Shown one piece after another: positions 21,995 to 22,824 of a DNA stretch of 64,000 nt. Position numbers and translations under genes: made by a program. The notes beneath the pieces are model-generated. The model did not search any database. It was given only the letters and a program-made list of their open reading frames with translations, and was not told the DNA's origin. How positions within the stretch are numbered: position 1 is the stretch's first letter; each line of letters opens with the position of its first letter. The stretch spans positions 806,001 to 870,000 of the forward strand of contig CANLNT010000001.1 in assembly GCA_947492825.1 (NCBI GenBank). Direction: 5' to 3'. Source of the DNA: an uncultured Paracoccaceae bacterium. GTDB taxonomy: Bacteria > Pseudomonadota > Alphaproteobacteria > Rhodobacterales > Rhodobacteraceae.

Positions 21995-22162
21995 CGCCAG
22001 TTCCGTTAACCCTGTTCTGGCACAATGGGTTAATCCGCGCATCCGATGCACAAAGCATGCACATTGCATGCATATCCAAATGTGAACATGCGTTAAGGCT
22101 AGGTCGTCAGATCAGTGTTTGTGCCACGGGGCGGTATCAGAACAGGGTCGGATTTTCGCACT

Positions 22163-22209
22163 CCCCAAAAAGAAACGGCGATGCGCGGGAGGAGGTGCAC
22201 ATCGCCGTT
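22163..22209 (-). terminator. Terminator formed by the last CCUCCUCCC hairpin
   Basis: Minus-strand stem AACGGCGATG/CATCGCCGTT with the ACCTCCTCCC loop is followed by TTTCTTTTT. The promoter-distal hairpin therefore also ends transcription of the locus. Confidence 0.85.
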
Positions 22210-22464
22210 CTTATTGGTGGCGCATTCCCCCGGGAGGAGGTGGGAGTTTGCGCCGGTGTCATCGAAACCAGCCAGGGAGGAGGTTGGTGGCTTCGACCAA
22301 CGGGCTTGCGCCGGGAGGAGGTGGCGGGCCCGTATTCTGTTTTGACAAGAATGGCGGCTCCGGGAGGAGGTGGAGCCGCCACCTTGTGTCTGGCCTGGCC
22401 GGATCAGGGAGGAGGTTGACCGGTCAGGCACTGGTCAGGACTGCCGCGGGAGGAGGTGCAGCAG
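22163..22464 (-). ncRNA. Array of seven anti-SD-loop hairpins (CcsR/Cuckoo-type small RNAs)
   Basis: Downstream of the DUF1127 stop on the minus strand, seven hairpins follow each other at 38-53 base pitch. On plus coordinates they cover 22441-22464, 22395-22427, 22353-22380, 22300-22333, 22262-22296, 22219-22254 and 22174-22209. Every loop is the identical ACCTCCTCCC while the stems differ in sequence but are kept by compensation, e.g. GGCGGCTCC/GGAGCCGCC. In Rhodobacter sphaeroides the four CcsR RNAs lie in the same place behind the DUF1127 gene ccaF1 and carry two such CCUCCUCCC hairpins each; they are stress-induced and processed from the co-transcript. Here seven hairpins would make three RNAs plus a terminal one, but the processing sites cannot be read. 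Confidence 0.9.
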
Positions 22465-22480
22465 GCCCGATGCGGTTGGC

Positions 22481-22696
22481 TTACTTGCCGTAAGCGGCTT
22501 CGTAAGCGACGGCCTTGATCGACGCGCGGCTGATGCCGAGGTCGGCCAGCTCGCGGCTGGACAGGGTTTCAAGTTCGGCCACGGTTGTGCGGAAGACTTT
22601 CCGCTTGGCGGAGGCTTCTGCCCACTGCGCCCGGAAGTCTGCGAATTTTTCGGCCAGCGACAGGCCAGCGGTGTTTGTGTTTGTATATGCCATCAT
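22481..22696 (-). CDS. DUF1127 small protein (CcaF1-like)
   Basis: A 71-residue basic protein with the DUF1127 domain in its second half: FRTTVAELETLSSRELADLGISRASI, then AYEAAYGK. The homologous small protein in Rhodobacter sphaeroides (CcaF1) binds RNA and affects maturation and turnover of the CcsR RNAs that follow it. The same layout here supports that role. The ATG at 22696 (followed by a second ATG) has AAGAG upstream. The mRNA continues into the hairpin array and stops at its last hairpin. A heat-shock-sigma-like promoter lies about 100 bases upstream. Confidence 0.93.
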   Translation of the reverse strand: MMAYTNTNTAGLSLAEKFADFRAQWAEASAKRKVFRTTVAELETLSSRELADLGISRASIKAVAYEAAYGK

Positions 22697-22795
22697 GCGT
22701 CTCTTTTCATTCTTCACTGCGTTGCGCCGTATTGCGCCTCGTGGACCAGATTTAGGGATATGCTGCGATTGCACAATGCATGATGCTGCAATGCG

Positions 22796-22824
22796 GCTAT
22801 GCACCAAGTGCATGATGACCAAGG
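22796..22824 (-). promoter_or_regulatory. Candidate RpoH-type promoter of the DUF1127/CcsR locus
   Basis: Minus strand CCTTGG (22819-22824), 17-base spacer, CATAGC (22796-22801). CTTG at -35 is the hallmark of RpoHI/RpoHII promoters, which drive the homologous locus in Rhodobacter sphaeroides. The -10 match is weak, so the exact site is tentative. Confidence 0.4.

Follow-up and report, generated by a model that had tools for sequence, protein, structure and literature searches.

Cuckoo RNAs (CIN1) are described by Reinkensmeier and Giegerich (2015), as reported in the papers that cite them, as two to four hairpins that carry CCUCCUCCC in the loop, have free stems and stand beside a short DUF1127 gene. 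According to the available parts of PMC10746234 and PMC3927594, NfeR1 and SmelA075 of Sinorhizobium meliloti go with the Rfam family ar14. NfeR1, in the sections of PMC10746234 at hand, is a single RNA of three hairpins with a promoter of its own. It has three identical loops and acts by pairing: two ABC-transporter mRNAs are silenced in this way, and so is ntrB, where the pairing takes place in the translation initiation region; the majority of its target candidates encode ABC transport systems. In Rhodobacter sphaeroides, the RNAs CcsR1-4 are released from the 3' UTR of ccaF1 via RNase E (PMC10253847, PMC8625941, PMC7866481, all in excerpt), and the CcsR target named in the accessible text of PMC8307010 is flhR, which is not a transporter.

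Here we analyse a locus of this kind in a stretch of 64,000 nucleotides from an uncultured Paracoccaceae bacterium, called the window below. Like the cuckoo RNAs, it has neighbouring hairpins that share the CCUCCUCCC loop, free stems and a short DUF1127 gene at their side, but it counts seven hairpins instead of the two to four described. The likeness to ar14 and NfeR1 lies in three such hairpins with a T-tailed last one, the ar14 model fitting both hairpins 1-3 and hairpins 5-7; on the other hand, two ar14 copies and an additional hairpin 4 are found here in one 3' UTR, unlike the self-standing NfeR1. With CcsR1-4 the locus shares the place in the 3' UTR of a ccaF1-like gene and the loop, and its promoter may be of a stress type as well, whereas the two-hairpin CcsR1 model fails on it.

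The hairpin array and its gene

The first-pass annotation had claimed seven identical loops on the minus strand behind a CcaF1-like gene. An exact-match search found the 10-mer ACCTCCTCCC seven times in the window, always on the minus strand, with the first bases of the loops at 22457, 22416, 22371, 22322, 22284, 22241 and 22196. The loops span 22187-22457 at distances of 41, 45, 49, 38, 43 and 45 bases, and a first-order Markov model predicts about 0.0004 occurrences of the 10-mer per 302 bases. The word CCTCCTCC alone has nine copies in the window, seven of them in the array.

Each of the seven elements forms a hairpin that has the motif in its loop, with energies of -16.4 to -26.9 kcal/mol. 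The fold of the whole array reaches -139.5, compared with -99.4 +/- 4.8 in 200 dinucleotide shuffles (z = -8.4). We also exchanged the arms between the hairpins: the 5' arms pair with their own 3' arms at a mean of -20.6 kcal/mol and with foreign ones at -9.9, and among the 5040 possible assignments the true one is the single one that reaches the true score, that is, the stems are private. Since the array folds far below the shuffles and each 5' arm goes best with its own 3' arm, the array of seven hairpins with the same loop is confirmed. Its range was first given as 22163-22464, which clips the 5' arm of hairpin 1 (Table 1).

Table 1. Positions of the features of the locus in the window
Feature	Position	Strand	Remarks
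PhaR-like site CCGCATTGCAG	22786..22796	minus	one mismatch from CTGCNNNGCAG
Promoter-like box TTGTGCA-N3-GCAGCAT	22760-22776	minus	by sequence; whole box with -10, 22748..22776
-10-like CCTAAATCT	22748-22756	minus	RpoH-like by sequence
Gene of CcaF1-like small DUF1127 protein	22481..22693	minus	70 aa; range includes stop codon
Rfam ar14 (RF02344) match, hairpins 1-3	22346..22475	minus	58.3 bits, slightly below the gathering score of 58.8
Hairpin 1	22435..22470, loop 22448-22457	minus	10 bases after stop codon
Hairpin 2	22392..22431, loop 22407-22416	minus	from fold
Hairpin 3	22345..22387, loop 22362-22371	minus	strong G+C stem; last hairpin in the upstream ar14 match
A-rich linker between hairpins 3 and 4	22334..22344	minus	widest loop spacing (49); candidate processing site
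Hairpin 4	22300..22333, loop 22313-22322	minus	from fold
Hairpin 5 (core stem)	22261..22297, loop 22275-22284	minus	from fold
Hairpin 6	22219..22254, loop 22232-22241	minus	from fold
Hairpin 7	22167..22212, loop 22187-22196	minus	T-rich tail 22167-22175; third hairpin in the downstream ar14 match
Rfam ar14 (RF02344) match, hairpins 5-7	22171..22301	minus	59.5 bits, above the gathering score of 58.8

The gene directly upstream, on the same strand, does encode a DUF1127 protein (Pfam PF06568, 34.4 bits, cut-off 23.3), as had been proposed, and such a gene precedes the array in all six genus genomes examined. At the other end, hairpin 7 runs into TTTCTTTTT and is likely the Rho-independent terminator of the operon, as judged from its fold and tail. 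The terminator scan did not list it, probably because the scan takes loops of three to eight bases only. A sigma-70 promoter scan gave no site, and neither the ar14 model nor a search for exact motif pairs found a second array in the genome. Words containing TGCA are clustered at 22020-22090 of the window, between a gene of the Lrp/AsnC type and the end of the array.

The annotation had further described the loop as a repeat of the anti-Shine-Dalgarno end of 16S rRNA, and its complementarity to Shine-Dalgarno sites holds. The 16S pattern, which we take to be the right 3' end, has no match in five assemblies of the genus, that of the window among them (G000, G061, G001, G002 and G004). Their rRNA genes may have been lost from the assembly, be masked or differ at this place, and the comparison of the loop with 16S rRNA rests on the sequence that we assumed.

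Family placement

The CcsR1 model (Rfam RF02791) gives 31.0 and 26.3 bits on the array, both below its cut-off of 65.3, and we rejected a CcsR1 membership by Rfam. The covariance search proposed earlier thus had a mixed outcome: ar14 reaches its cut-off on the downstream half, CcsR1 does not. Likewise, the suggested match to the CcsR RNAs stands for the position behind a ccaF1-like gene and falls for the model, the closer Rfam match being the three-hairpin ar14. When 15 relatives were scanned with the Rfam models, there were nine passing matches, eight to ar14 (at six loci) and one to CcsR1, which does reach its cut-off in one relative (L106). Eight of the 15 had no match above a cut-off though arrays are present, and the Rfam models therefore cover the family poorly.

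The loop CCUCCUCCC is found in seven of the seven hairpins, the stems are not conserved while their pairing is kept (one assignment of 5040 in the arm swap; 70 changed cells kept, 46 broken, see below), and the short DUF1127 gene adjoins the RNA. These features support the assignment to the cuckoo/CIN1 family made in the first place. Together with the ar14 matches, the failure of CcsR1 and the poor coverage by Rfam, they lead us to file the locus, on its sequence features, as a cuckoo/CIN1 locus of the ar14 type that is not a CcsR1 member.

Conservation and number of the loops

The genus set comprised six genomes, including that of the window. The array is present in all of them, with seven exact loops in five and six in G003, the most distant congeneric species, where the first loop is decayed. 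We compared the stems without gaps, using the structure from the window's genome and up to four congeneric species. There were 40 two-sided and 30 one-sided changes that keep the pair, and 46 broken cells, of which 24 fall in G003 and are partly register shifts; hairpin 6 has five two-sided and eight one-sided changes and no broken cell. The idea that the stems are kept paired by compensation is borne out by the 70 pair-keeping cells and weakened by the 46 broken ones, that is, judged from this comparison the compensation is real but not clean.

For a wider view we took the best 80 of 300 candidate loci, chosen by their DUF1127 protein and called named loci here; those nearest by this protein come from uncultured Rhodobacteraceae, Loktanella and Yoonia. 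At least one exact CCTCCTCCC loop is found downstream of the gene in 78 of the 80 and at least two in 76, and at least two copies of the 8-base core CTCCTCCC occur in every one, with a range of 2 to 16 cores per locus. Seven is the commonest count (11/80 with exact loops, 13/80 with the core), and the number is odd in 36 loci by exact loops and in 30 by the core. Comparing the element numbers in relatives, as had been proposed, thus showed that seven is the mode; we rejected seven as an unusual number, and an odd number of elements is nothing special either. The same is true for stems of its own, the other trait thought to set this array apart: the 69 loci with at least three exact loops comprise 525 elements, and in 451 of these no foreign arm pairs better than the own one (ties included); private stems are therefore the rule.

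Across the family, 235 of 296 genomes (completeness at least 95%) have two exact motifs at a distance of 20-50 bases in at least one place, a count that includes the window's species twice and in which single matches may be chance; a reversed control pattern gave about 47 of 296 by hand count. Many relatives have hairpin pairs with long linkers (for example 39, 67, 39, 48, 33, 38, 39 in Rhodobacter capsulatus, L102). The gaps of about 60-90 bases between hairpin pairs that they show are absent from the array described here, and close spacing throughout is seen in the window's genus and in some Yoonia and Loktanella loci.

Some relatives differ in other ways. One (G168, locus L204, G168:C1:334300-337300) has 26 exact loops, mostly in tandem repeats of one unit that holds three hairpins and is about 140 bases long. 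Two others (L023 and L027) count 13 and 10 loops; they contain runs of two-hairpin units, about 107 bases each and nearly identical, which give the impression of recent amplification, whereas the hairpins of the window have diverged. No DUF1127 match was found in the stretch examined around the six loops of L020, nor in that of the distant relatives G045 and G052, whose pattern matches may, like other single matches, be chance.

Putative promoter region

TTGTGCA stands upstream of the array in 69 of the 80 named loci, and in these 69 the later G, C, A and G, following after exactly three bases, are kept in 69, 69, 68 and 69 loci. Thirteen bases after TTGTGCA, the consensus of the 69 loci reads CCCCAT, where the window has CCTAAATCT. 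We take CCCCAT at this place to resemble the -10 element of heat-shock sigma promoters, and the promoter of the array, with its RpoH-like -10, may be of a stress type.

A second conserved element is the palindrome CTGCNNNGCAG. It is exact in all four other species of the genus. In the 300 bases upstream, 46 of the 80 named loci have an exact copy and 78 a copy with at most one mismatch; the loci are related, so that these counts are not independent. For eight control palindromes in the same region we found no exact copy in any of the 80 loci, and 3 to 16 with one mismatch; CTGCNNNGCAG itself was exact in 2 of 78 control stretches and had one mismatch in 19. In the 39 loci with both elements, the start of CTGCNNNGCAG precedes TTGTGCA by 28-29 bases in 30 loci and by 20-21 bases in the other 9.

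The PhaR site published for R. sphaeroides, as cited in the accessible part of PMC12542648, reads CTGCNNNGCAG. The same text reports that the PhaR site in the promoter of mmgR, an sRNA gene of S. meliloti, reads CAATTGTGCACCGCAGCATTA and gives an efficient EMSA shift. This site resembles the TTGTGCA-N3-GCAGCA box of our locus, with the difference that the EMSA-tested sites of mmgR and SMa1961 have a spacer of two bases, compared with three here. The likeness to MmgR concerns the promoter box alone; no kinship of the RNA is claimed. PhaR is not mentioned in the two CcsR papers PMC10253847 and PMC8625941, and a paper on Paracoccus sRNAs has no mention of ar14, CcsR, DUF1127, PhaR or Rfam.

The extended box TTGTGCA-N3-GCAGCA-N3..5-CC occurs at one other place in the genome, behind groEL (L197:1501-1794, G000:C1 near 108745). 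There it is accompanied by the heat-shock-like CCCCATAT and precedes a 70-aa frame that starts with MAYLATHTLEEMNRGW; the frame has no Pfam match and by eye resembles the small DUF1127 proteins. A TTGTGCA-N3-GCAGCAT box is also found behind groEL in another genus assembly (L199, G004).

Candidate target mRNAs

We found GGGAGGAG, which is complementary to the loop, at 38 places in the genome. Seven of these are the array itself, and the word is so rare elsewhere (31 places) that it yields a short list of likely targets. Eleven of the 31 sites stand 3-10 bases before an ATG, compared with 3 of 30 for the reversed control word (Fisher p = 0.018). Six of the 11 frames behind them have at least 70 aa, and five of the six match Pfam, all five being uptake components: DctP (L128), DctQ (L129), Peripla_BP_4 (L132), DctP (L133) and BCCT (L134). 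For the sixth (L127, 103 aa), Pfam gave no match; the remaining five frames, of 5-62 aa, lay outside the Pfam scan and are probably not genes.

As a control we used AAGGAGG before ATG, a 7-base word in one genome and a small set: 31 places, of which 30 were taken, gave 19 distinct frames of at least 70 aa that were scanned, 17 of them with a Pfam match. Three of the 17 are of the uptake type (L169, L171, L190; the exporter-like L176 was not counted), compared with five of five for GGGAGGAG (p = 0.002), and there is no binding protein or TRAP part among the 17.

The four other species of the genus have 31 places with GGGAGGAG before ATG, of which 30 were taken, 26 leading frames of at least 129 aa. 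Among the 25 genes scanned, 16 encode uptake components, one of them (L161) called by a weak solute-binding match of 40.6 bits. By eye, what seems to be one DctP gene is found again in three of the four species, and one DctQ gene likewise in three. The other nine encode an NTP transferase, two copper-chaperone-like PpoB2 proteins, a CO-dehydrogenase flavoprotein, an acetyltransferase, two DUF2147 proteins, a CoA transferase and a metallo-beta-lactamase-fold protein. A pooled test gave 21 of 31 versus 3 of 17 uptake genes (p = 0.001), where orthologues are not independent and L154, which lay outside the Pfam scan and by eye resembles L145 and L151, is counted as non-transport. GGGAGGAG precedes a PpoB2 gene in three species of the genus (L145, L151 and, by eye, L154) and a DUF2147 gene in two (L153, L166), and such recurrence makes these genes candidate targets outside transport.

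The loop is predicted to pair with the five uptake sites at -15.5 to -16.6 kcal/mol, and the assumed 16S end with the same sites at -11.7 to -12.4, that is, the loop would bind tighter by about 4 kcal/mol. By way of these sites, the earlier suggestion that the loops bind ribosome-binding sites gains indirect support. The uptake-gene sites agree with the NfeR1 pattern without proving regulation, because strongly made binding proteins might use such Shine-Dalgarno sites without any control by an RNA.

Possible processing of the transcript

The linker at 22334-22344 contains AATACG, the end of the word lying inside hairpin 4. We counted six linker words (AGTTTC, AAATTC, ATACCG, ATACGG, AATACG, ATTTCG) in the gaps of the relatives and found them in 25 of 292 short (shuffles 4.4), 13 of 37 mid (0.7) and 70 of 125 long gaps (6.5), a count that is no independent test because the words had been picked from these very data. 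The RNase E word RNWTT occurs in 44 of 292 short (shuffles 40.1), 16 of 37 mid (7.3) and 67 of 125 long gaps (36.4); thus it is enriched about twofold in the mid and long gaps of the relatives and not in the short ones. Taken together, the widest spacing, the A-rich linker and the two ar14 matches suggest that the 3' UTR may be cut into one RNA of three hairpins and one of four.

Alternative explanations

Instead of silencing mRNAs, the loops could act as a decoy or sponge that binds other RNAs or a protein (for example G/A-rich regulatory RNAs, CcaF1 or Hfq), the number of loops setting the capacity for titration. The loop number, which varies from 2 to 16 cores in the named loci up to 26 exact loops in G168 at a constant loop sequence, would fit a dose effect, and the parts of PMC12559287 at hand describe a Caulobacter RNA that is a sponge for sRNAs with a stretch like an anti-Shine-Dalgarno sequence. 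However, the sponge in that system is rich in G/A, and it is its C/U-rich partners that repress, as we propose for the array, and direct silencing of mRNAs fits the uptake-gene sites. We consider a decoy improbable.

A role purely in cis, with hairpins that serve to stabilise or end the ccaF1 mRNA and a loop that is conserved through binding by CcaF1, appears to us slightly more improbable still. It is favoured by the terminator-like hairpin 7 and by the position behind the DUF1127 gene, which is seen in all six genus genomes and in the 80 named loci, a set picked by means of this gene. But stability would not call for seven to 26 copies or for a perfect loop, six loops are found in L020 with no DUF1127 match in the stretch examined, and both CcsR and NfeR1 act in trans, as far as the accessible text of PMC10746234 and PMC8307010 goes.

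Activity of the plus strand, where the seven loops would offer GGGAGGAGGT, a perfect Shine-Dalgarno site, is hardly credible and was rejected: the sequence is there and the terminator scan gave one plus-strand stem (22352-22381, with 1.1 expected by chance), but the ar14 matches and the final T-rich run lie on the minus strand, and the conserved boxes upstream and the orientation of the gene favour it as well. Just as little credit goes to a selfish or recombinational repeat without RNA function, which was rejected too, since in spite of near-identical tandem units in the relatives G029, G030 and G168, the elements of the window and its genus share the loop only, and largely keep their pairing as the stems change, and the ar14 model and the motif-pair search showed no further array in the genome.

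Proposed mechanism and significance

We think it probable that this cuckoo (CIN1, ar14-like) locus makes multi-hairpin RNAs under stress, perhaps one of three and one of four hairpins, which block the translation of uptake genes. We infer that the gene of the small, RNA-binding DUF1127 protein and its long 3' UTR would be transcribed together from the stress-type promoter with its PhaR-like operators, and that the transcript would end at hairpin 7. The 3' UTR would then be split, the A-rich linker that separates hairpins 3 and 4 being the most likely place, into a three-hairpin and a four-hairpin RNA, in which every hairpin would present a single-stranded ACCUCCUCCC. This stretch could form eight base pairs with GGGAGGAG where it serves as the Shine-Dalgarno site of a few mRNAs, mainly those of TRAP, ABC and BCCT uptake systems, so that binding of the 30S subunit would be blocked. 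Having many loops on one RNA would provide redundancy and dose, not distinct targets.

The locus itself is of a known kind, and the worth of the analysis lies in two leads, the list of targets and the PhaR-type operators. The Pfam-recognised targets in the genome are uptake genes, and the promoter palindrome kept in the relatives points to possible control by PhaR, a regulator of the storage polymer. More tentatively, and with a greater chance of being wrong than right, the DUF1127-cuckoo operon of the Rhodobacteraceae might be a switch for the carbon status, in which PhaR, a repressor that senses PHB, and an RpoH-type sigma factor control RNAs that shut off TRAP, ABC and BCCT uptake via GGGAGGAG, with a dose set by a loop number of 2 to 26. 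The available part of PMC12542648 states that PhaR appears to activate transport genes in Sinorhizobium; if the switch were real, it would offer a possible reason for this effect, provided that a similar RNA is at work there. If both leads are true, a stress-RNA locus with motif pairs in most of the family genomes examined would be linked to carbon storage and nutrient uptake.
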